Positions 3,148 through 52,861 of a stretch of 64,000 bases of DNA are shown here, in pieces (the stretch's first letter is position 1; each line of letters begins with the position of its first letter). The translations under genes and the position numbers were made by a program. Under the pieces are notes generated by a model. That model was not told where the DNA came from. It saw only the letters and a program-made list of their open reading frames with translations, and ran no database searches. The stretch lies in NCBI GenBank assembly GCA_016928155.1, contig JAFGLG010000002.1, positions 16,412-80,411 on the forward strand. The letters are read 5' to 3'. This stretch comes from Candidatus Woesearchaeota archaeon (GTDB lineage: Archaea; Nanobdellota; Nanobdellia; Woesearchaeales; JAFGLG01).

Positions 3148-3666
3148 ATGGGTAGAAATAATAAAGAAGATTTATTGATGGAACTGGCGAAAAAAGTATT
3201 TGGTGAGAAAAAATTTAAAGAAATAAATGATAAATTAGATTATCAATGGAATTCATTTTTTATGATTGTATATGATATTCAATCAGCATTTTCGGCTCGC
3301 AAAATGAATTTTCAACATATGGAAATGTTTTATTTATTATTCAAATTGTTCAATTCGGATATTAAATTTTCAAATTCACAACATTTTTTTCAAAAAATAA
3401 AAGATGAGAAACATATTTGGTTATCTGTTAAACAAAATACTCTTTCCAAATTATTTAAGGATTTAAGGGAAAATGATTTTATTATGTCTGATAAAACAAA
3501 AACATCTTCAAGAGGCAAACAAGGCTATTTTGTTCCTGTATTTGCAGAATATTTTAATAAAGAATATAAACTTTCAAATGAAAACATAATAGAATTATTC
3601 AATATAATCTTATATCATTCTGATGATGGGGGCAGCATTTTTCATTTTACAAAAAAAATAAATTAA
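3148..3666 (+). CDS. AT-rich winged-helix-like protein (172 aa)
   Basis: The segment around residues 85-135 (KQNTLSKLFKDLREN, then SSRGKQGYFVPVF) resembles the recognition helix and wing of an HTH domain, and the N-terminal half is helical. No family is firmly recognised. The base composition is far more AT-rich than the chromosome around it, a mark of acquired DNA. It is convergent with the integrase, with a 4-base overlap, and divergent from the RHH operon, so it may be the switch gene of the element. Confidence 0.55.
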   Translation: MGRNNKEDLLMELAKKVFGEKKFKEINDKLDYQWNSFFMIVYDIQSAFSARKMNFQHMEMFYLLFKLFNSDIKFSNSQHFFQKIKDEKHIWLSVKQNTLSKLFKDLRENDFIMSDKTKTSSRGKQGYFVPVFAEYFNKEYKLSNENIIELFNIILYHSDDGGSIFHFTKKIN

Positions 3667-4907
3667 TTTTTTTTAATTTCTTGATCAAAGGTGCCTTTCA
3701 ATCTCTCATCCTTGTATATCATTTCTATAAAAGCATCATATCTCTCCAGCCTTTGCTTGATCTCATGCATCTCCTTTTGGATGCTGCCTTCATTCTGCAC
3801 GAGATCCTCCTTCTTGACCTTCAAGAACAGCCCACATTTCTTGCAGTAAGTCATATCAGCCGGATTCCTCTCCTGACATCTGAGGCAAATCTGACTATCA
3901 AAGACTGACTGCACCTTATCACTTTCCAGGCCATTCAATGCTCTTATCTCTCGCTGATAATCCTTTGCAGAGCTCTTATCATAATTCACTATGACCTTTG
4001 TGCCTTTTCGCCATCCATACTTTTGCTCCAGGGCACCTGTCGTAACTCCCTTGATCCTGTCCATTGTGACTGAGAATTTTCTGAGCTTGTAAGGATAGGC
4101 CCTTTTATTGATGCCTTGTCTCTGGCAGATCTCTTTCAGCACTAAACCCAGGCCCGCAATTGAGATATCAAATAAATAGATCTTATCTTTCGGCAGGCTT
4201 TTCACATAACTTGATATATGATTGAGCACCCAGCTCTCATAAATATAGATGTCTCTTGTCCCTGTTTTTCCCGAAACTTTGATCTTTATGCCATCCTTTA
4301 TCTCTGAAATGTCCTGTTTTCTGATGGTCAATAACTCTTCTGGCCTTAATCCCTGGCTTGCTGTGATACTGATCCAGCATTTATCTCTGAGATTTCTTGC
4401 TCCCTCAATGATCCTCATGACATCGTCTTCATTAAACCACTCTTCCTTTTCCTTCTTCTTTGAGGGGTTATCCTTTTTCTTGAAATAAGGAGTCCTCCGA
4501 TCATAAATCCAGAAATAAATTGGAGTTAAATTCTCATACTTGTCCAGGGTTGTGATGGTCTTATAGAGCATTTGCACAGCTCCCCTATGATCATCCTTGG
4601 TGCTTTCCCTATGATCCTGGCTGTTGATCTTGGCTGCCAGCTTGATCAGATCCTCTTTGTTGCTGGCTTCTAGGATGTCCTTATCCATCCAGCTGATCAT
4701 GTTCTTCCAATGCATGATATACTTGCTTCTCCTGGCATGAGTAAGGCCCTGAGCCTCTAATAGGGCAAAGAAATCCTCCATGACCTGCTTATTTGAGGGG
4801 CTTAAACCTGGCCACTTATCAGGGTGCATATTGCCCTTACCCCCATTTATAAATAAGGGATAGATTCTATTGAAATTGGCTTCATGCCTGTATATGTCCT
4901 TTGGCAT
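3663..4907 (-). CDS. Tyrosine recombinase/integrase with C-terminal zinc ribbon
   Basis: This 414-aa protein has an N-terminal SAM-like core-binding domain (about 30-130) and a catalytic domain (about 160-330). Candidate catalytic residues are the Arg in GLRPEELL, the Lys in SGKTGTR, YKLRKF at the usual HxLR position, Trp in GWRKGTK and Tyr in VNYDKSS. The usual His of the HxxR motif is Tyr, as in some archaeal integrases. A zinc ribbon (CLRC then CKKC) and a coiled C-terminus follow. It starts 64 bases from a tRNA-Leu gene, the expected attachment target, and should insert or excise the element to its left. Confidence 0.9.
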   Translation of the reverse strand: MPKDIYRHEANFNRIYPLFINGGKGNMHPDKWPGLSPSNKQVMEDFFALLEAQGLTHARRSKYIMHWKNMISWMDKDILEASNKEDLIKLAAKINSQDHRESTKDDHRGAVQMLYKTITTLDKYENLTPIYFWIYDRRTPYFKKKDNPSKKKEKEEWFNEDDVMRIIEGARNLRDKCWISITASQGLRPEELLTIRKQDISEIKDGIKIKVSGKTGTRDIYIYESWVLNHISSYVKSLPKDKIYLFDISIAGLGLVLKEICQRQGINKRAYPYKLRKFSVTMDRIKGVTTGALEQKYGWRKGTKVIVNYDKSSAKDYQREIRALNGLESDKVQSVFDSQICLRCQERNPADMTYCKKCGLFLKVKKEDLVQNEGSIQKEMHEIKQRLERYDAFIEMIYKDERLKGTFDQEIKKN

Positions 4908-24097: not shown

Positions 24098-24151
24098 TAC
24101 AGATGACAAGAGCGATACAGATAACAAGATCGATACAGATGACAAGAATAA
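24098..24151. repeat. Three 18-bp tandem repeats at the start of the MinD-like gene
   Basis: The unit ACAGATGACAAGAGCGAT recurs three times with small changes (second copy ACAGATAACAAGATCGAT). It spans the region just before and across the candidate start codons of the first MinD-like gene, so three nested starts (24103, 24121 variant, 24139) encode repeated MTRxIQ. It may be replication slippage, and it may affect start choice. Confidence 0.6.
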
Positions 24152-24966
24152 TCGCAATCACTGGAGGGAAAGGAGGGACCGGGAAATCAACAGTGGCAAC
24201 ATCCCTAGCCTTCGAATTGTCAAAAGAGAAAAGAGTGCTCCTGGTGGATGCTGATGTCGACTGCCCCAATGACCATCTGCTCCTGAGCATAAAAAGAGAG
24301 CATCTGAAAACAGTCAGGCAGAGGATACCCAAGTTCAATCCTGACAGATGCACAAAGTGCGGAGCATGCGGAAAAGTCTGCAAGACAAATGCCATAATGT
24401 CGATAAAAGGAAAGAACCCCATATTCATGCCTGACCAATGCAATGGATGCGGAGCCTGCAAGATCATCTGCCCGTCAGGCGCAATCGAATGGGATTCCAA
24501 GGAGATAGGCAGGATATACTCCGGCAAAAAGGACAATCTTGATTTCCTGTCAGGAGAACTGAAGACAAACCAGCCCATCTCAGAATTCATAGTCAACAGC
24601 CTAAATGAGGAGATAGAAAAAAGAAAAGATGGATATGACTATATCATAATAGACACTGCCGCCGGCACACACTGCCCGGTCATAGCTGCTCTTGAAAATG
24701 CAGATTATGCATTCGCTGTGACAGAGCCGACCCCGCTCGGAGCGCACGATCTTGAGATAATCCTGCAGCTGCTGGCCAGGATGAACAAGAAAGGGGGGAT
24801 AATCCTGAACCGCTCTGACATCGGAGACAAAAAAATCATAGAATCCATGGCAAAAAAGCACAGCGCAGGGATAATATTTGAGATACCTTTCTCAAAAGAG
24901 ATAATAATCCAATATTCAAAAGGAGAGCCTGTCAACATCCCAAGAATATCGTCAATAATAAAATGA
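24139..24966 (+). CDS. MinD/Mrp-type ATPase with ferredoxin insert (first of two)
   Basis: With the ATG at 24139 the protein is 275 aa and starts MTRIIAITGGKGGTGKST, the deviant Walker A. Two 4Fe-4S motifs (CTKCGACGKVC and CNGCGACKIICPSGAI) are inserted at about 65-110. Walker B-like DYIIIDTAAG and the EPTPLGAHDLE loop follow. This P-loop/ferredoxin architecture is common next to NifX and DUF5320 genes; it probably loads or moves Fe-S or metal cofactors. The open frame extends 36 bases upstream through a tandem repeat. It overlaps its paralogue by 4 bases. Confidence 0.88.
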   Translation: MTRIIAITGGKGGTGKSTVATSLAFELSKEKRVLLVDADVDCPNDHLLLSIKREHLKTVRQRIPKFNPDRCTKCGACGKVCKTNAIMSIKGKNPIFMPDQCNGCGACKIICPSGAIEWDSKEIGRIYSGKKDNLDFLSGELKTNQPISEFIVNSLNEEIEKRKDGYDYIIIDTAAGTHCPVIAALENADYAFAVTEPTPLGAHDLEIILQLLARMNKKGGIILNRSDIGDKKIIESMAKKHSAGIIFEIPFSKEIIIQYSKGEPVNIPRISSIIK

Positions 24967-25856
24967 AATCAATAATAGTCTTATCAGGGAAAGGAGGTGT
25001 GGGAAAAAGCAGCATCGCTGCCTCATTAGCAATAGCTTTCTCTGAAGACAAGAGGATAGTGTGCGCAGACTGTGATGTCGATGCCTCAAACCTCTCTATC
25101 CTGTTCTCACTGCCGACAGAGAGATATGAAGAATGGACCCCTCTGTCCACCAACCAGATAGCCTCAATCGACAGGGATAAGTGCATAAGATGCGGAAAAT
25201 GCATCGCCACATGCTATTTCAAGGCACTGCGATCCGAAGACAATATCCCTAAACTGAATGAATTCGGTTGCGAGGGCTGCGGAGCATGCGAACTGATATG
25301 CCCAGCCAAGGCAATAACACTGAAAGATATCGATAATGCATACATCGGGTACTCAAGAACAGGCTATGGATTCAAGATCGCATCTGCACAGCTGCTTCCG
25401 GGCAATTCCGGCTCAGGGAAAGTGGTCTCAGAGGTCAGGAAGAAGGCAAAAGAGATAGAACCTGATGCAGAGCTGATGATAATAGATGCTGCAGCAGGGA
25501 TAGGATGCCCTGTCATAGCTTCTGTCACAGGGAATGACTATGCTTTATTGGTCACTGAACCAACACCCTCAGGATATGAGGATATGCTGAGAGCGCTTGA
25601 CATAGTGGACCATTTCAGGATCAAAAAAGGGATCATAATAAATAAATATGACCTGAACAAGGATTATTCTGCAAAGATAGAGCTTTTTGCGCAGGAGAAA
25701 AAAATCCCCATCATCCATAAGATACCTTTTGACAGGGCTTTTGTAGACGCGATGACCAATATGGTGCCGATAATCGATCATGACAAAGATTTCAGGAAAA
25801 TGTTCATGGATATGAAGAAAAAAATTGAAGCTGAGGTGATAGACAGTGAAAAATAA
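24963..25856 (+). CDS. MinD/Mrp-type ATPase with ferredoxin insert (second of two)
   Basis: This 297-aa paralogue of the preceding protein has SGKGGVGKSS (8-17), ferredoxin motifs CIRCGKCIATC and CEGCGACELICPAKAI, and LMIIDAAAGIGCPV. The pair may work as a heterodimer. It starts within the stop of the first copy (ATGA) and overlaps the GTG start of the thioredoxin-CcdA gene by 11 bases. Confidence 0.9.
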   Translation: MKSIIVLSGKGGVGKSSIAASLAIAFSEDKRIVCADCDVDASNLSILFSLPTERYEEWTPLSTNQIASIDRDKCIRCGKCIATCYFKALRSEDNIPKLNEFGCEGCGACELICPAKAITLKDIDNAYIGYSRTGYGFKIASAQLLPGNSGSGKVVSEVRKKAKEIEPDAELMIIDAAAGIGCPVIASVTGNDYALLVTEPTPSGYEDMLRALDIVDHFRIKKGIIINKYDLNKDYSAKIELFAQEKKIPIIHKIPFDRAFVDAMTNMVPIIDHDKDFRKMFMDMKKKIEAEVIDSEK

Positions 25857-46157: not shown

Positions 46158-47066
46158 CTATTCTCTCCTGACAAATTCAATATTCTCGATCGCTTGCCTC
46201 AGATCAACTGCACGATTGCAGTTCTGGGATATGACTGTGTTATAGAATTTTGTCACTTCTTTGCTGACTATCACAACACCCGTCGTCACACCAAGGTGCC
46301 TCAGAGAGATGTTGACCCGCTTGTCATTAACATCTATCTGCATGGGGATATAATCATCAAGAACAAATCCCTTCAGTTTATATCTCTCAAAATTCTTCAA
46401 CAGAGAGGATTTCCAATGCTCAAAGAATTTTGGACCCAGCTTCATAATGATATCAAGGTGAAAATCCAGTGCGGATCTCTCAAGGACCGCCTCAATTGAC
46501 TTACCTCTCTTCAATGCATCATTGTAGGTCTTATGAACAAGAAAAGTCATCTGTGGATCAAAATGGGTTATCGTCGGCCTTGATGCGACAATCGCTCTCC
46601 TGAGCTTCACAAATCTCTTGAAATCCATCGGATAGAAAGCATAGGGGAAAGACTGGTGGAGCGACATATACCTGAAACTATTTGATTCCACAATCATCTG
46701 CAGATGCATCTGGGTGAACTGCTTGCTGTTGTTTACAATATCTATATGCTCAGCTCCAGGACCTCGCATCTGATCAATAATGTCCGCTTGTGCAATCACC
46801 ATCCGGTCGATATTGTGCTTCATGAAGTTGATAATGCGTTTGTTAAGATTGCCGACTGAATACAAAAAAGGCCTTTTAGGAGATTTCTCTATCAGACCAC
46901 TGGTGATGAGGCCGTTCAGATAATCATATATCCTACCCTTTGGGATGCCAGTCTTGGCACAAACATCTTTGGCATCTAAGCCCTTGTCCCTTAGCACTTC
47001 GATAATGACAACCTGGCTGTCACTAAGGGCAAAGTTCTCCTGCAACTTTTCAAGAAGCTTATCCAT
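46158..47066 (-). CDS. TrmB-like transcriptional regulator
   Basis: This 302-aa protein starts MDKLLEKLQENFALSDSQVVIIEVLRDKG and has a winged-helix domain in the first ~75 residues (DAKDVCAKTGIPKGRIYDYLNGLITSGLIEKSP), the TrmB pattern, followed by a ligand-binding half that is not clearly assigned. ATG at 47081 is a possible earlier start. It is divergent from the unknown 294-aa gene; a perfect palindrome in the shared spacer (47115-47128) is its likely operator. Confidence 0.78.
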   Translation of the reverse strand: MDKLLEKLQENFALSDSQVVIIEVLRDKGLDAKDVCAKTGIPKGRIYDYLNGLITSGLIEKSPKRPFLYSVGNLNKRIINFMKHNIDRMVIAQADIIDQMRGPGAEHIDIVNNSKQFTQMHLQMIVESNSFRYMSLHQSFPYAFYPMDFKRFVKLRRAIVASRPTITHFDPQMTFLVHKTYNDALKRGKSIEAVLERSALDFHLDIIMKLGPKFFEHWKSSLLKNFERYKLKGFVLDDYIPMQIDVNDKRVNISLRHLGVTTGVVIVSKEVTKFYNTVISQNCNRAVDLRQAIENIEFVRRE

Positions 47067-47114
47067 CATAAGATATAACAAATACTTATTTATAAATATT
47101 GTCAGAAAAACACG

Positions 47115-47128
47115 AAAAAACGTTTTTT
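47115..47128. promoter_or_regulatory. Palindrome between TrmB-like and 294-aa genes
   Basis: AAAAAACGTTTTTT is a perfect 14-bp palindrome. It lies just upstream of the TATA box TGTTTAAATAATC (47138-47150) of the plus-strand gene and near the TATA of the minus-strand regulator. It is a candidate TrmB-like operator. Confidence 0.45.
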
Positions 47129-47189
47129 AGTAGGAAATGTTTAAATAATCAACCCACTTACCTTTACGCATCAAGCGGGGTGACAATGA

Positions 47190-48074
47190 GTGGTATGCAA
47201 CATAACTGAGATAGTACTCAATCAGGCTAATAGAACTGACCATATCAAGAGAATGCTCACTCTAGATGGATTAACTGATGAAAGGATCAGGGAGCATATC
47301 ACCAAATACCGTTCTATGGTCCAAGAAAGGATACCTGATATTTCTGAAGAAGACCTGGAAACAGCAAACCTATACATAATTGATGGCCACAATCCCGGCT
47401 TTGACCCATGTGAGGTACAGGCCACAATAGACAAATACAAAGGCATAACCTCATTCCTTGATGATATTCTCCAACATCTGGGGGATACTGGCTTTCTAGA
47501 GGCTGAAGATGCCTGTTATTCTGGATTGGCATTAACTGGAGTTGCAAAGGATAAGATGCCAAATCTTCTAGCTGACCATGAGAGGATAAAGGCTGCAGTT
47601 GTATCAGCTGGACTGAGAAGATATGATCCCGCTGAAGCTCCGTTTAATCCGCAGCACAAACTGGTAGGCCTTCCGCAGGAGGTTTTTGATATTGACAATC
47701 TGATGGTCGCTGCGTCAAGATTCTTCACATTCACAAATCTGGCTGCGTCAAGCGGGGGAGGCATGGAAGAGAGGACCGCTATCGCATACAACAAAATGCC
47801 TATCATAATCATGAAGAAGGGTGAATATACGAGCAGAATGACTACTGGAGCCAGACGAGTGCTCCTATTCGAGTATTCTGACATAAAAGCACAGTTCAAT
47901 GAGCTTGTAGATTTCATCAGCGAAGCAAGATCATACAGCCCTGGAATCGGGACCTGTTCGGAGCATGGAAACACCTTGGTAGGATTCCGCGAAGGTGATC
48001 ATCTTTGCTTACCTGCACATATGGAGAGGAAATTCCCATCTGTGAAGTATGATTTTTCACAATACCAGAAATGA
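47190..48074 (+). CDS. Unknown protein, possibly nucleoside-deoxyribosyltransferase-like fold (294 aa)
   Basis: It starts with GTG behind GGGGTGACA. No family is firmly recognised. The C-terminal half reads SRFFTFTNLAASSGGGMEERTAIAYNKMPIIIMKKG...RRVLLFEYSDI, a Rossmann-like layout in which a Gly-rich turn and Glu precede a beta strand, as in nucleoside 2-deoxyribosyltransferase or TIR-like folds; this is only a resemblance. It is divergent from a TrmB-like regulator and upstream of the radical SAM cluster, from which it is separated by a T-tract and a new TATA box. Confidence 0.55.
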   Translation: MVCNITEIVLNQANRTDHIKRMLTLDGLTDERIREHITKYRSMVQERIPDISEEDLETANLYIIDGHNPGFDPCEVQATIDKYKGITSFLDDILQHLGDTGFLEAEDACYSGLALTGVAKDKMPNLLADHERIKAAVVSAGLRRYDPAEAPFNPQHKLVGLPQEVFDIDNLMVAASRFFTFTNLAASSGGGMEERTAIAYNKMPIIIMKKGEYTSRMTTGARRVLLFEYSDIKAQFNELVDFISEARSYSPGIGTCSEHGNTLVGFREGDHLCLPAHMERKFPSVKYDFSQYQK

Positions 48075-48131
48075 ATAGCAGAGTTTGAATGCTTTTTTCT
48101 TAGATTTTCCTATATGGCATTCAGCTTCAGC

Positions 48132-48140
48132 TATAAAATT
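48132..48140 (+). promoter_or_regulatory. TATA box of the radical SAM cluster
   Basis: TATAAAATT lies about 36 bases before the ATG of the 33-aa peptide ORF and after a T-rich stretch (48092-48110) likely to end the upstream transcript. It would start the cluster transcript near 48160. Confidence 0.5.
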
Positions 48141-48171
48141 TTTCCGAAACATTCAGAAAAATTCCAAGAGA

Positions 48172-48273
48172 ATGAAAAAACAAAAGGGGGACGGAAAGCT
48201 TAATCCATATTGGGCAATGTACGACAAAGAGAAAATTATGGAACAGATGAACCAAACCCACGAGGAAAAATGA
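48172..48273 (+). CDS. Small peptide ORF, candidate precursor peptide (33 aa)
   Basis: The peptide begins MKKQKGDGKLNPYWAMYDK and ends MNQTHEEK. It is the first ORF after the cluster TATA box, and its stop overlaps the ATG of the Lrp/AsnC gene (ATGA), so it is co-translated with the modifying-enzyme genes. It is basic at the N-terminus, with an aromatic patch in the middle. A longer frame starts at 48085, but that part lies upstream of the promoter. It could be a substrate of the radical SAM and E1-like enzymes, or only a leader ORF. Confidence 0.45.
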   Translation: MKKQKGDGKLNPYWAMYDKEKIMEQMNQTHEEK

Positions 48274-48716
48274 TCAATGAAACTGACATAGCAATCATAC
48301 AGATGCTACGACAGAACTCAAGAGAATCCCTGGCAAAGATGGGAAAAAAGATAGGAATACCCATGTCAACAACATATGATAAGCTCAAGAAACTCGAAGA
48401 GAACGCGATCCTGAGGCATTCCACAATCGTGGACTTCCGGCAATTAGGGTTCTCCCACAGGATACATCTCAGCCTGAAGTTTGAAAACAATACCAAACAC
48501 AGCTTCAGGCTATTTGCCTGCTCAAATCCAAATGTGAACAACATACTGGAATGCGTAGGCGAATATGATTTCATAATGGACTGTCTATTCAGGGACCTGA
48601 AAGAGATGCACGCCTTCATAGAAGACATCAAATCAGGCTTCAATCCCACAAACATGAAAAGACTGGACATCGTGGGGGACATAAAACAAGAGGGGCTGAA
48701 GTTTTGGAATGATTGA
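48270..48716 (+). CDS. Lrp/AsnC-family regulator
   Basis: This 148-aa protein starts MINETDIAIIQMLRQNSRESLAKMGKKIGIPMSTTYDKLKKLEE, the AsnC HTH, with a RAM-like effector domain after residue 65 (FRLFACSNPNVNNILECVGEYDFIMDC). Members sense amino acids or related ligands. It probably controls the cluster in which it lies, coupled to the 33-aa ORF before and the radical SAM gene after. Confidence 0.88.
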   Translation: MINETDIAIIQMLRQNSRESLAKMGKKIGIPMSTTYDKLKKLEENAILRHSTIVDFRQLGFSHRIHLSLKFENNTKHSFRLFACSNPNVNNILECVGEYDFIMDCLFRDLKEMHAFIEDIKSGFNPTNMKRLDIVGDIKQEGLKFWND

Positions 48717-48745
48717 GCGACCTTGATGGTCAACAGGAAAGAAAA

Positions 48746-49915
48746 ATGCAAAAGAAGAATATCGCAAGGGCTGAGAATTTTGGTTACACCTTGCTAGATA
48801 GAAGAAGCCTGATGCACAGATTTATCCACAAGGAAGAACCAGACCCGAATGGATATGAGGTATGGTCAGCGGATCTCTCCAATGCACCCAAGGATCTCCT
48901 ATTCTCTCCAGTAAGGATGTATTTTGAAGTCACAAATATTTGCAACCTCAGATGCAAGACATGCTTCAACAATTCTGGACAGAAAAGACCTGATGAGATG
49001 AACACTGAGCAGGTCTTGAGAACCCTTGATGGATTCAGGCGCAACAATGTGATGGACATAAGATTCACAGGTGGTGAAGTAACCTGCAGGCCGGATTGGT
49101 TCGAGATACTTAGGCATGCAAAGGACCTTGGATTCGCTGTATCAATAAACACCAATGGGGTCTACAGAAATGATGAAACACCCGAGAATCTGGCATCCTT
49201 GGAACTGGAGCAGATCACATTAAGCGTCGACGGAGACCGACAAAGCCATGATATGATAAGAGGAGATGGGAATTATGAACGGACAGTATCATCCATGCAG
49301 AGACTCCATGATCTGGGCGCCCATCTCAGAATAAACACAATCCTGACAAGATCATCTGCAGAAAGTATACCACATATATTGGATCTGGCCTCGAGATATG
49401 CAGAAGAGATCAACTTTTTCTATATGCGATTGATGGGAAGAGCGCTCAATCTATCCGACCAGATAGTGCCTTATGAGGACCTATGCAGAATCGATGAAAA
49501 AATTGATGGATTAAGATCAAGATATCCAGGGCTTAATATACTGCATGGATCAAAAGTCATGGCAAGGACATCTGTGAATGCAGACCTATCAAAGAAATTC
49601 GGACTTACAATTGGAGGACCGGAGGGTTTTACACGATTCAACATATTGCCGGATGGATCCCTGTGGCCAGGAGGATACACACCACATATCAGACCAGAAT
49701 TCATGCTTGGCAATATAATATCAGAAGGGTACGATCTCCTTAATATATGGAGACACTCTGAGAAACTGGCATCATATAGGAAAATTAGCCTGGAACTGCA
49801 GAAAACCTGTTCAGAATGTGATCAGAGAGCAACAAGATGCAACGGAGCAAGCATGGAGATGACATTCTTCAAGGAAAAAAACCCTCATATCGGGAATCCA
49901 TACTGTGCAAAATGA
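48746..49915 (+). CDS. Radical SAM/SPASM protein A
   Basis: This 389-aa protein binds the radical SAM 4Fe-4S cluster at Cys66, Cys70 and Cys73 (CNLRCKTC). It has the GGE-type SAM motif FTGGEVTCRPDW and a SPASM-like C-terminus CSECDQRATRC...NPYC for auxiliary Fe-S. SPASM enzymes usually modify peptides. ATG 48746 was chosen because it aligns with the start of the downstream paralogue; a TTG at 48713 overlaps the Lrp stop. It overlaps protein B by 4 bases. Confidence 0.92.
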   Translation: MQKKNIARAENFGYTLLDRRSLMHRFIHKEEPDPNGYEVWSADLSNAPKDLLFSPVRMYFEVTNICNLRCKTCFNNSGQKRPDEMNTEQVLRTLDGFRRNNVMDIRFTGGEVTCRPDWFEILRHAKDLGFAVSINTNGVYRNDETPENLASLELEQITLSVDGDRQSHDMIRGDGNYERTVSSMQRLHDLGAHLRINTILTRSSAESIPHILDLASRYAEEINFFYMRLMGRALNLSDQIVPYEDLCRIDEKIDGLRSRYPGLNILHGSKVMARTSVNADLSKKFGLTIGGPEGFTRFNILPDGSLWPGGYTPHIRPEFMLGNIISEGYDLLNIWRHSEKLASYRKISLELQKTCSECDQRATRCNGASMEMTFFKEKNPHIGNPYCAK

Positions 49916-51093
49916 GATACATCTCAAGACATGAAAGATTTGGAAGGACAGTATTCAATCCTGCAGACTTCACCCATGCTTATACCAGCGAAGAGCAGCA
50001 TAGTGATCTCAAAGTCAAACATCAGGTCGAAGAGAAAAACAATCCTGTAACCGGCACTGAAGGAATACTTGAAGCCCCCATAAGAGTCTATTATGATATC
50101 ACAATGGCATGCAACCTAAGATGCAAAACATGCCTAAACAGCTCAGGAGAACCAGATAAAGATGAGCTTGACACTGAACAAAGCCTGAGAACAATAGATG
50201 GCCTAACTTCAGCAGGAGTATTTGAAGTCAGGTTGAGCGGCGGAGAGCCAACTTTCAGAGATGACTGGGGCCTTATTCTGAATCATGCAAAGGAAAGAGG
50301 GCTTATAATATCATTGAATACAAATGGCGTCTTCTCAGACAGAACACTGAAAAAACTGATAGAATTAAAACCAGATGAAACAACAGTCAGCCTTGATGGA
50401 GCAAGAGATCTTCATGATAGGATCCGTGGACCTGGAAAATATGATAGGTCCTGCGCTGCAATACAAGCCATGAACGAAGCAGGACTCAGGGTCACAATAA
50501 ACTCAGTGATGACTGCCAGCACTTCAATGGCAGATATTGAGGAACTCACTGCAGTAGCCGATAGGTACTGTCAGGATATCAGTTTCTTTCATGCCAGACC
50601 ATTAGGTAGAGCACAGAACATCCCTGAGGAGATATTGCAATACAAGAATCTTGATGACAAGATGGCATGGGCTGAATCGATAAGATCAAAGTATCCGCAT
50701 CTCATAATACGTACCAGAAGCTCAAGCATAAAGAAGAGCGGGATATCCCCATCTATAGGATTAGGATTGGTAAGAGGAGGGAGTGATGGCTTCACACGAC
50801 TGAACATAATGTCCAATGGGGACATCTATGCAGGCGGATGTGTAAGATATGTCAACGAAAATGTCAGGGAAGAACAGAAACTCGGGAACATAGTGGATGA
50901 ATCATTCTGCATCAAGAGAGTATGGCATCATAGTGCTAGGCTCTGGGCCATAAGAGAAACGAGCAGAAGACTGCAAGAGCAATGTGATCAGTGCCCTGAA
51001 TATCAAGGAAAATGCCACGGCTTCACGCCAGAGATGTACCAGTATGGCCTGGCCAATTCTGGTGATCCTTTCTGCATAATGAGGACAAAATGA
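49912..51093 (+). CDS. Radical SAM/SPASM protein B
   Basis: This 393-aa protein is a clear paralogue of A: CNLRCKTC at Cys67/71/74, LSGGEPTFRDDW, TVSLDGARDLHDRIRG, and a C-terminal CDQCPEYQGKC...DPFC. The pair shares the same NxSG, TEQxLRTIDG spacing after the cluster, so it arose by duplication. The two may act in sequence or as a heterodimer on one substrate. The start lies in the stop of A (ATGA), and the stop overlaps the editing-domain gene. Confidence 0.92.
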   Translation: MRYISRHERFGRTVFNPADFTHAYTSEEQHSDLKVKHQVEEKNNPVTGTEGILEAPIRVYYDITMACNLRCKTCLNSSGEPDKDELDTEQSLRTIDGLTSAGVFEVRLSGGEPTFRDDWGLILNHAKERGLIISLNTNGVFSDRTLKKLIELKPDETTVSLDGARDLHDRIRGPGKYDRSCAAIQAMNEAGLRVTINSVMTASTSMADIEELTAVADRYCQDISFFHARPLGRAQNIPEEILQYKNLDDKMAWAESIRSKYPHLIIRTRSSSIKKSGISPSIGLGLVRGGSDGFTRLNIMSNGDIYAGGCVRYVNENVREEQKLGNIVDESFCIKRVWHHSARLWAIRETSRRLQEQCDQCPEYQGKCHGFTPEMYQYGLANSGDPFCIMRTK

Positions 51094-51503
51094 GATCCGT
51101 GCTTTTCCACTGCAGGAGATATGCAACAAGAATTACACGACTCGCGAATAGACCATCCGACATCAATCCTGAAACAGTCAGAGAACATAAACAACAGATA
51201 GACAATTGCATCGTGGCCATGATCTCTATAGAGATGAGAGACAAAAATGAATACGTTGAGAAGATGGCAACAGAAATCTCCCATATGGCAAAAGAAACCA
51301 AGAATAATAGGGTAGTCATACTCCCTTTTGCACACTTATCCAATCGGTTAGCTGAACCAAAAAAAGGACTTGATTACCTTAAGAAGCTAGAAGAATCACT
51401 TTCAAAAGATCACGATGTCTCAAGAGCTCATTTCGGCTCCCATAAAGAACTGATGCTGGACCTCTATGGCCACCCTGGAAATGCAAGGTACAGGGAGTTC
51501 TGA
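51090..51503 (+). CDS. Stand-alone archaeal ThrRS-type editing domain
   Basis: This 137-aa protein resembles the N-terminal editing domain of archaeal ThrRS, a D-aminoacyl-tRNA deacylase (DTD)-like fold: AMISIEMRDKNEYVEKMATEI, then VILPFAHLSNRLAEPKKGLDYLKKLEESL (the PFAHLS..LA.P signature), then AHFGSHKELMLDLYGHP. The family removes Ser from tRNA-Thr or D-amino acids from tRNA. It has no synthetase attached here. Coupled to both radical SAM genes, it may clear tRNAs charged with a product of the pathway. Confidence 0.8.
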   Translation: MRSVLFHCRRYATRITRLANRPSDINPETVREHKQQIDNCIVAMISIEMRDKNEYVEKMATEISHMAKETKNNRVVILPFAHLSNRLAEPKKGLDYLKKLEESLSKDHDVSRAHFGSHKELMLDLYGHPGNARYREF

Positions 51504-51513
51504 CAAGGTGAAA

Positions 51514-52386
51514 ATGATGTATTATGCAGAAGAGTTCAGGCAACTGATGTCAGGCATATATCGGCAAGAGGAACTTCAAAAGATAAAAGACGCCAGCATC
51601 TCAATATCTGGTGTGGGTGGATCAGCCGGCAGCTACCTCCTGGATATACTTGTTAGGAAAGGCTTCGAGACATTCAACCTTGCAGAACCTGACATCTATG
51701 ATCTTAGGAACCTTTCAAGACAGCTTTTCGCAAATACACAAACAATTGGAAGACCAAAACTGGACATCGCCGTTGAACACGCACTAAGAATAAACCCACA
51801 GTTGACAATAAACTGTTATGCGAGCGTAGATGCTGAGAATGCAGAAGATTTCACTAGAAGTTGCACAGTCATGGCGTATCAGGCAGAAGGATTCTCGGCC
51901 TGGGCACTGACCAGATACATGTGCTCAAGATATAAGATACCATTCGTCAATGTATCAAGAAAAAGGAAAGGAAACCTCCGTAGCGTCATCGCAACAACAG
52001 TGTTTGATTATCGAGATGGAGAACCATTCACGGCGGATGAGCTAGAGTTCGACTCATTCGGAATCCAAGGAGACCTTGCCAGAATTGTCAAAGAGATGTT
52101 CATACAAGGAAGAATCAGGCAGGATTTATTGGACGAGTGTGACAGAGTACATAATGAATTCAAGAAAAAAAGGAGATTCACAAACCTTGGAGATCTTTAC
52201 CCTGAGGTTGGTCCAATTACCGACCGATACCCTGATGATTATTTCAAGAGGTACTCTGACCCTGAAATATGCCTAATAGCGGGTGCCCTTGCAGCACGCA
52301 CCATAACCGATCTTGTTGTCAATAGAATCACAGAAGTCAGGGAACTGGACATATTCTCCAGAAAGTCCGCAGGACAGAAGCAATAA
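51514..52386 (+). CDS. E1/ThiF-like adenylating enzyme
   Basis: The 290-aa protein has the Rossmann ATP site SGVGGSAGSYLLDILVRKG (about 34-52) and the E1 arginine/asparagine/lysine set in YDLRNLSRQLFANTQTIGRPKLDIA. There is no CxxC zinc pair. E1-like enzymes adenylate the C-terminus of a protein or peptide (ThiS, MoaD, microcin C7 precursor); here a small peptide is a possible substrate. ATG 51514 follows AAGGTGA; the open frame starts 48 bases earlier. Confidence 0.88.
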   Translation: MMYYAEEFRQLMSGIYRQEELQKIKDASISISGVGGSAGSYLLDILVRKGFETFNLAEPDIYDLRNLSRQLFANTQTIGRPKLDIAVEHALRINPQLTINCYASVDAENAEDFTRSCTVMAYQAEGFSAWALTRYMCSRYKIPFVNVSRKRKGNLRSVIATTVFDYRDGEPFTADELEFDSFGIQGDLARIVKEMFIQGRIRQDLLDECDRVHNEFKKKRRFTNLGDLYPEVGPITDRYPDDYFKRYSDPEICLIAGALAARTITDLVVNRITEVRELDIFSRKSAGQKQ

Positions 52387-52417
52387 ATATTAAAACAAAA
52401 AAGGATATATCTCACTC

Positions 52418-52861
52418 ATGACTCAACAGATACAAGGCATTGCATATAGAAAGATAGGGGATAAACACCAATTCCTTCTCTTGAAAAGGATTCCTGAAAA
52501 AGGTGGTTTCTGGCAACCAATAAGCGGGAAAGTGGAACATAATGAAGGTCTGCAAGAAGCCCTCTTCAGGGAATTGATGGAAGAAGCTAACATACACAAA
52601 ATGGATATTCTAAGATTGGTACCTGATGTCCACAAATACAAGATATCCAGGCATTACCTAACAGATGAACCAATAGAGCCAATCACTGAGACAGTATTTG
52701 GTGTTGAGATAAAACCTGAGACAAAGATATCCATCCATGGTAACACTTCAAAAGAACATAGTCGATTCATCTGGGCTGAATTTGAAGATGCTGTCAAGAT
52801 GCTGAAATGGGAAGACAACATCAAAGCCATACATTTATTACTTAAGAAGATAAAGAATTAA
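52418..52861 (+). CDS. NUDIX hydrolase (147 aa)
   Basis: It has a NUDIX box SGKVEHNEGLQEALFRELMEEANI at about 36-58 (GX5EX7REUXEE form) preceded by FLLLKRIPEKGGFWQPI, as in dATP/dihydroneopterin-triphosphate hydrolases. It lies 31 bases after the E1-like gene on the same strand, and a TATA-like TAAATATTAAAAC lies in between, so it may be a separate transcript or the last gene of the cluster. It overlaps the convergent DUF655 gene by 4 bases. Confidence 0.82.
   Translation: MTQQIQGIAYRKIGDKHQFLLLKRIPEKGGFWQPISGKVEHNEGLQEALFRELMEEANIHKMDILRLVPDVHKYKISRHYLTDEPIEPITETVFGVEIKPETKISIHGNTSKEHSRFIWAEFEDAVKMLKWEDNIKAIHLLLKKIKN

Follow-up and report, generated by a model that had tools for sequence, protein, structure and literature searches.

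A 64,000-nucleotide window of the genome of a Candidatus Woesearchaeota archaeon (GenBank assembly GCA_016928155.1, contig JAFGLG010000002.1, positions 16,412–80,411 of the forward strand; genome of 1.48 Mb in 17 contigs) was found to contain six open reading frames (ORFs) lying head to tail on the + strand behind a TATA box, spanning positions 48132–52386, based on the window sequence and a Pfam scan. ORFs and domain matches bore out every gene named in the initial annotation: a 33-aa peptide ORF, an Lrp-type regulator, two radical S-adenosylmethionine (SAM)/SPASM enzymes (rSAM1 and rSAM2), a stand-alone editing domain of the threonyl-tRNA synthetase (ThrRS) type (ED) and an E1-like adenylating enzyme (E1). 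The translation-factor and regulator genes have an archaeal character. This gene set is a real, recurring group that goes beyond a chance neighbourhood, since ED and rSAM1 each recur with E1 elsewhere. The genes follow one another with tight junctions, and ED is additional to the editing function of the ThrRS. Our tentative reading, to which we give somewhat less than an even chance, is a pathway resembling those of ribosomally synthesised and post-translationally modified peptides (RiPPs), in which the radical SAM enzymes would modify a ribosomal peptide, E1 would activate its carboxylate and ED would clear tRNAs mischarged with a non-standard amino acid of the pathway. For peptide modification on its own our confidence is higher.

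Recurrence of the gene neighbourhood

The initial annotation had suggested looking for the same neighbourhood in other genomes, and two indirect tests, one based on E1 N-termini ('heads') readable out of frame as an ED tail and the other on contigs of identical size, showed that the ED–E1 and rSAM1–E1 associations recur. E1 belongs to a discrete and rare family of 18 sequences among ~5.8 billion proteins, followed by a gap to a distant ThiF protein; P0019, a distant ThiF, was left out of the family count. The heads of five of the 18 proteins (that of the window, P0002, P0004, P0008 and P0017) could be read out of frame as an ED tail YGHPGNARYREF; the remaining 210 of 215 proteins failed this test, and so did all 20,000 shuffled tails, for which P0002 was used. 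Because these heads read as ED tails, ED ends at the start of E1 in the contigs of P0002, P0004, P0008 and P0017, as it does in the window. The test covers the E1 sequences with long heads, the other 13 beginning further in.

Seven of the 17 foreign E1 sequences were on a contig of exactly the same size as that of an rSAM1 homologue (control mean 0.06, maximum 2, 1000 offsets), three matched an ED in this way (control mean 0.16, maximum 3), and four EDs matched a radical SAM protein (control mean 0.49, maximum 4). The database source was common to both members in six of the seven E1–rSAM1 pairs, in all three E1–ED pairs and in all four ED–radical SAM pairs. The remaining E1–rSAM1 pair, of 5583 bases (P0004 from jgi, P0155 from ncbi), was counted among the seven and is doubtful. 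With both tests combined, an ED or rSAM1 neighbour was evident for 10 of the 17 foreign E1 sequences, all ten environmental, including P0005 and P0008 with both and P0004 with an ED and perhaps an rSAM1.

Operon organisation

The features of the operon are listed in Table 1. TATAAA was the sole match in 48101–48172 when four TATA-like hexamers were tried. The initial annotation had described genes joined by ATGA-type overlaps behind one TATA box, which holds for the genes, the TATA box and three junctions (peptide/Lrp, rSAM1/rSAM2 and rSAM2/ED). The Lrp/rSAM1 junction is TTGA, provided that the TTG start of rSAM1 is correct (homologues start near 48746), and the E1 reading frame already runs open over the last 38 nt of ED; since a later ATG is the called start in most relatives, ED and E1 may merely abut. 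The regulator matched HTH_AsnC (29.4 bits, cut-off 27), with a weak ligand domain (22.8, cut-off 25); its closest NCBIfam model was LysM (42.1, cut-off 180).

Table 1. Features of the operon and the adjoining NUDIX gene (window coordinates)
Feature	Position	Strand	Evidence and remarks
TATA-like promoter element	48132..48139	+	TATAAA, 40 nt 5' of the 33-aa ORF
33-aa ORF, candidate precursor or leader peptide	48172..48273	+	Coding-like codons; ATGA overlap with Lrp gene
Lrp/AsnC-type transcription regulator	48270..48716	+	HTH_AsnC match
rSAM1, radical SAM/SPASM enzyme	48713..49915	+	Domain matches, alignment, structure model
rSAM2, radical SAM/SPASM enzyme	49912..51093	+	Domain matches, alignment, tree
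ED, stand-alone archaeal ThrRS-type editing domain (D-aminoacyl-tRNA deacylase fold)	51090..51503	+	PF08915
E1, ThiF/E1-like adenylating enzyme, discrete family	51466..52386	+	PF00899; true start perhaps ATG near 51514
NUDIX hydrolase, membership uncertain	52418..52861	+	Domain match; 31 nt 3' of E1

Radical SAM enzymes

The two radical SAM enzymes are 37% identical to each other, and both scored above the cut-off for SPASM (PF13186). The CxxxCxxC motif was present, with C66, C70 and C73 invariant in the 38 rows of the alignment, as were four SPASM cysteines (355, 358, 365 and 387 in 389-aa numbering). The structure model of rSAM1 (pLDDT 93.4) was closest among solved structures to the peptide maturases SkfB and SuiB, likewise radical SAM/SPASM proteins, with viperin and MoaA ~9–10 Z units below SkfB. 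Its predicted N-terminal beta sheet (strands at residues 5–10, 13–18 and 23–28) is positioned as in SkfB and SuiB. No helix of four or more residues precedes the radical SAM core; with three strands and no three helices, this amounts to only half a RiPP recognition element (RRE) under the strict beta3-alpha3 definition given in the available part of PMC12710340. The best NCBIfam match of both enzymes was the mycofactocin maturase MftC, also a radical SAM/SPASM protein (136.7 and 141.1 bits); both fall short of its equivalog cut-off (TIGR03962, 265), and no MftA-like peptide was recognised.

A quick tree of 83 radical SAM sequences placed the nine linked ones with agreeing sources, the window's rSAM1 included, in one group of 29 (SH-aLRT 92), which also contained P0155; rSAM2 fell outside this group, alongside P0205 and P0209. 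The radical SAM alignment matched 3 of 371 genomes of the phylum (E ≤ 1e-60), 4 of 352 of the order (E ≤ 1e-45) and, among viral contigs, a single sequence at 29%. Inspected by eye, the surroundings in genomes G512, G282 and G308 had only radical SAM genes in common with the operon. In G282 (L055:2501-10188), four genes that by eye are of radical SAM type form a row together with one HD-domain-like and one glycosyltransferase-like gene, which has the look of a biosynthetic cluster as yet uncharacterised. What looks like a separate peptide pathway was seen by eye in G308 (L056:7075-13723), comprising a repeat-rich peptide gene (GESR/LGESRAS motif), two radical SAM-type genes, an ATP-grasp-like ligase and a methyltransferase.

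The 33-aa ORF

The 33-aa ORF is a candidate substrate of these enzymes, and the product of the operon is probably a modified small peptide. Codon usage learnt from nine other genes gave the ORF a score above that of 92% of 472 overlapping windows of equal length from the coding sequences of eight neighbouring genes, and above those of all 433 open out-of-frame windows of that length. The peptide contains no Cys, one Trp and two Tyr, and is encoded once in its genome, the only match being itself.

Alternatively, the ORF may serve solely as a translated leader, coupling or attenuating expression of the Lrp gene, with the substrate of the enzymes, another peptide or a small-molecule cofactor, encoded elsewhere. 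Its ATGA overlap with the regulator gene instead of an enzyme gene, its lack of Cys and the absence of a second genomic copy or of any relative seen would all suit such a role. Precursors of radical SAM RiPP clusters, on the other hand, are often found at the first start after the promoter, the place that this ORF occupies behind the TATA box, and the centre of the peptide (NPYWAMYDK) is rich in aromatic residues. We consider a leader-only role unlikely.

The editing domain

ED matched PF08915 with 89.9 bits (cut-off 30.2) and was the only such match in its genome. Like the N-terminal editing domain of archaeal ThrRS (PabNTD) and free-standing D-aminoacyl-tRNA deacylases (DTD), it belongs to this family and keeps PFAHLS and the active-site Lys; it differs from PabNTD in being free-standing, in an organism whose ThrRS has the bacterial SAD domain, and in its family-specific tail, NARYREF. 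His82 and Lys119 (PabNTD His83 and Lys121) were invariant in 32 of 32 aligned rows, and the position of PabNTD Tyr120 was His in 28 of them. As the available part of PMC4491819 describes, PabNTD removes Ser from tRNAThr and its pocket side chains are dispensable; the residues of ED therefore do not settle its specificity.

The organism's own ThrRS is of the bacterial type, with TGS and SAD domains, and so already supplies an editing domain. ED as the missing proofreader of ThrRS was ruled out, since both this ThrRS and that of G319 have TGS and SAD, and solo EDs coexist with an ED-bearing ThrRS in G475 and G520. Six genomes were searched for ThrRS: in all four solo-ED genomes with a full ThrRS the enzyme already bears an editing domain, and no full ThrRS was found in G367 or G509; the ED of G509, which runs to the contig end, is probably a cut ThrRS. 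In the phylum sample the solo-ED alignment matched 22 of 371 genomes (E ≤ 1e-25), 16 of them in long ORFs of ThrRS size (525–648 aa). Solo EDs thus form a broader family of additional editing proteins, a few members of which belong to this operon. The initial annotation had held that homologues scattered and never together would speak against a joint pathway; solo EDs are indeed scattered without the other genes, and 'never together' does not apply to ED–E1 and rSAM1–E1.

These data bear on a second alternative, in which ED is a general trans-editing factor of small-genome lineages recruited by chance, the remaining genes forming a peptide pathway that can do without it. Solo EDs without a radical SAM or E1 gene within ~4 kb on each side (by eye) in G475, G520, G367 and G319 fit this, as do the six cluster-linked EDs, which fall within a single 18-row section of a 108-row ED tree without forming a clade (4 changes, 6 of 108 rows). 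So few changes arose, however, in just 3 of 500 label shuffles, and the position of ED directly 5' of E1 is kept across E1 proteins only 51–61% identical to that of the window. Chance recruitment of ED is, in our judgement, rather unlikely.

The E1-like enzyme

E1 (306 aa; PF00899, 75.1 bits) has a ThiF domain from residue 25 and keeps the residues of the ThiF/E1 superfamily: Rossmann GxGGxxGS, the RQ pair, Lys and the acidic Mg-binding position. Its family was found in the source genome alone, both among 99 genomes, where four further matches at E ≤ 1e-10 were ThiF-like proteins 24–31% identical, and among 352 genomes of the order (E ≤ 1e-30); a search of the species genomes gave one weak 26% match and that of viral contigs none. 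The fold comparison with the predicted model was headed by ThiF, MoeB, AclA and MccB; AclA (PDB 9egb) shares the E1 fold, and the identity of AclA and MccB to E1 in this comparison was low (15–16%). The RiPP enzymes MccB (microcin C7), PaaA (pantocin A) and IndF have this fold and use ATP to activate a peptide carboxylate; by analogy, E1 may do likewise.

A tRNA-centred pathway would account for E1 differently, the enzyme acting like TcdA, the cyclic threonylcarbamoyladenosine (t6A) synthase, on a tRNA carboxylate. Modification by the radical SAM enzymes would then fall on the same tRNA, with ED in control of its aminoacyl end. Among PDB sequences, the E1 profile scored highest with TcdA (51 bits; UBA5 41, MccB 37), ED has a tRNA-acting fold and adjoins E1 directly in five of the E1 sequences, and TcdA and ED presumably both act around threonine (t6A and tRNAThr). 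Against this stand the 45.7 bits of E1 with the TcdA model of NCBIfam (PRK15116), far below the cut-off of 304, and the fold list above, in which TcdA was not among the best 50, although this does not exclude kinship. The likeness of the rSAM1 model to peptide maturases, with its leader-binding-like sheet, and the small coding-like ORF heading the operon further argue against a tRNA-centred pathway, which we regard as distinctly unlikely.

A possible peptide-modifying pathway

In the RiPP-like pathway, the three-stranded sheet at the N-terminus of the SPASM enzymes would bind the 33-aa or another small peptide, whereupon rSAM1 and rSAM2, judging by fold kinship, would abstract hydrogens and leave residues cross-linked or epimerised. 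E1, which has the nucleotide-binding, RQ, Lys and acidic residues, would adenylate a carboxylate, and attack by a side chain would give a ring or an amide. Turnover of the product may free an odd amino acid that a synthetase could charge, and ED would hydrolyse it from the tRNA; Lrp, sensing an amino acid, would turn on expression of the unit. The initial annotation had envisaged a modified peptide or amino acid pathway with the editing domain protecting translation: the gene group is real, the rSAM1 model is near peptide maturases and the adenylation residues of E1 are in place, and the part as substrate given to the 33-aa peptide and as guard given to ED we infer. A further extension, which we consider doubtful, is self-immunity by tRNA editing, ED being wired directly 5' of E1 to keep epimerised or altered threonine-like residues out of the producer's own proteins, in what would be a new class of archaeal peptide natural products.

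Several observations weigh against the RiPP-like reading. The E1–ED and ED–radical SAM size matches merely equal the highest control, only E1–rSAM1 lying far outside it, and the 5583-base pair may be due to chance because its members differ in source. Neither link was seen for 7 of the 17 foreign E1 sequences, five of them on contigs > 6 kb (49,748 and 22,800 among them); either the module is not universal or the search lists, with one contig entry for each 90% cluster, miss some. EDs more often occur away from the cluster: just 3 of 110 foreign ones match an E1 in contig size, and the solo EDs of G475, G520, G367 and G319 have been described above. No counterpart of the 33-aa ORF was visible in a relative, its own genome being the one searched with it. 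Beside the operon genes there was no recognisable exporter, peptidase or full RRE, and E1, with a short disordered N-terminus in the model, has no N-terminal RRE, unlike the RiPP ThiF-like enzymes MccB, PaaA, GrcB and IndF (the last in the available part of PMC12150305). The sequence match of E1 to the tRNA-modifying TcdA points the same way.

NUDIX gene and other features of the window

The NUDIX gene was dropped as a firm operon member, its relatives mostly being without a radical SAM neighbour. They occurred at E ≤ 1e-15 in 3 of 97 other relatives' genomes; in the stretches read, that of G071 adjoins a radical SAM gene and those of G066 and G083 do not, and the window protein is 43% identical to the G071 and 50% to the G066 NUDIX. 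At the G071 locus (L024:8298-10354), the wider-family radical SAM gene has as neighbours an NDK-like gene of 139 aa (PF00334, 35.7 bits) and the convergent NUDIX gene; no E1 or ED was seen there. P0200, P0204 and P0206 are wider-family radical SAM/SPASM proteins with a C-terminal NUDIX domain in the same chain. A nucleotide-directed or antiviral system of the viperin kind, with NUDIX acting on the product, is very improbable: the PADLOC pVip models match rSAM1 (71 bits), and the fusions and the G071 locus would suit it, but viperins are not known to carry SPASM, viperin and MoaA rank well below SkfB in the fold comparison, the fusions fall in a different branch of the radical SAM tree and the closest NUDIX relative has no radical SAM neighbour. 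The PADLOC and PHROGs scans gave superfamily-level matches only.

Directly 5' of the operon, positions 47190–48074 (+) encode a 294-aa protein that matched nothing in Pfam, NCBIfam, PHROGs or PADLOC at the thresholds applied. Further off, tandem ParA/MinD-like ATPases with ferredoxin-type cysteine clusters (24103–25856, +) were seen by eye 3' of NifX-like and cation-transporter-like genes, as was a tyrosine recombinase/integrase-like ORF (3663–4907, −) near an ATPase-like ORF (1088–2608), where an integrated element is possible.

Relation to known systems and implications

The closest known system is that of the GRC clusters of Streptococcus pneumoniae (GrcA–F), which the operon resembles without being a member. 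According to the available part of PMC12250964, from which the GRC features below are taken, these contain a 39-residue peptide, the ThiF-like GrcB and two radical SAM enzymes, one of which, GrcC, introduces L-allo-Thr. Both systems thus have a short peptide gene and a ThiF-like adenylating enzyme adjoining two radical SAM enzymes. GrcB has an RRE, whereas E1 does not; GRC clusters have a separate RRE and a transporter; neither turned up as a standalone protein among the eight proteins scanned here with Pfam and NCBIfam (46158–52861; further neighbours by eye only). The GRC precursor has a C-terminal Cys that forms a Glu-Cys thiolactone and the 33-aa ORF has no Cys; GRC clusters adjoin quorum-sensing operons, and section 4 of that source describes no tRNA-editing domain for them. 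The operon is not a GRC member because E1 lacks an RRE and the small ORF lacks Cys. The threonine stereoisomer in GRC and the threonine-tRNA editing fold here point suggestively to a possible link.

The initial annotation knew of no described pathway with this combination. No description of this gene set was found among the papers listed in literature searches, most subscription journals being outside their coverage, yet radical SAM enzymes with a ThiF-like enzyme and a small peptide were already known from GRC; the novelty lies in the occurrence in an archaeon and in the inclusion of an editing domain. As producers of modified peptides, small-genome archaea of this type have received little attention. 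If the proposed pathway is correct, it would tie self-protection in natural product biosynthesis to translation quality control, bringing together radical SAM chemistry, carboxylate activation and tRNA proofreading, and it would supply a function for free-standing ThrRS-type editing domains.

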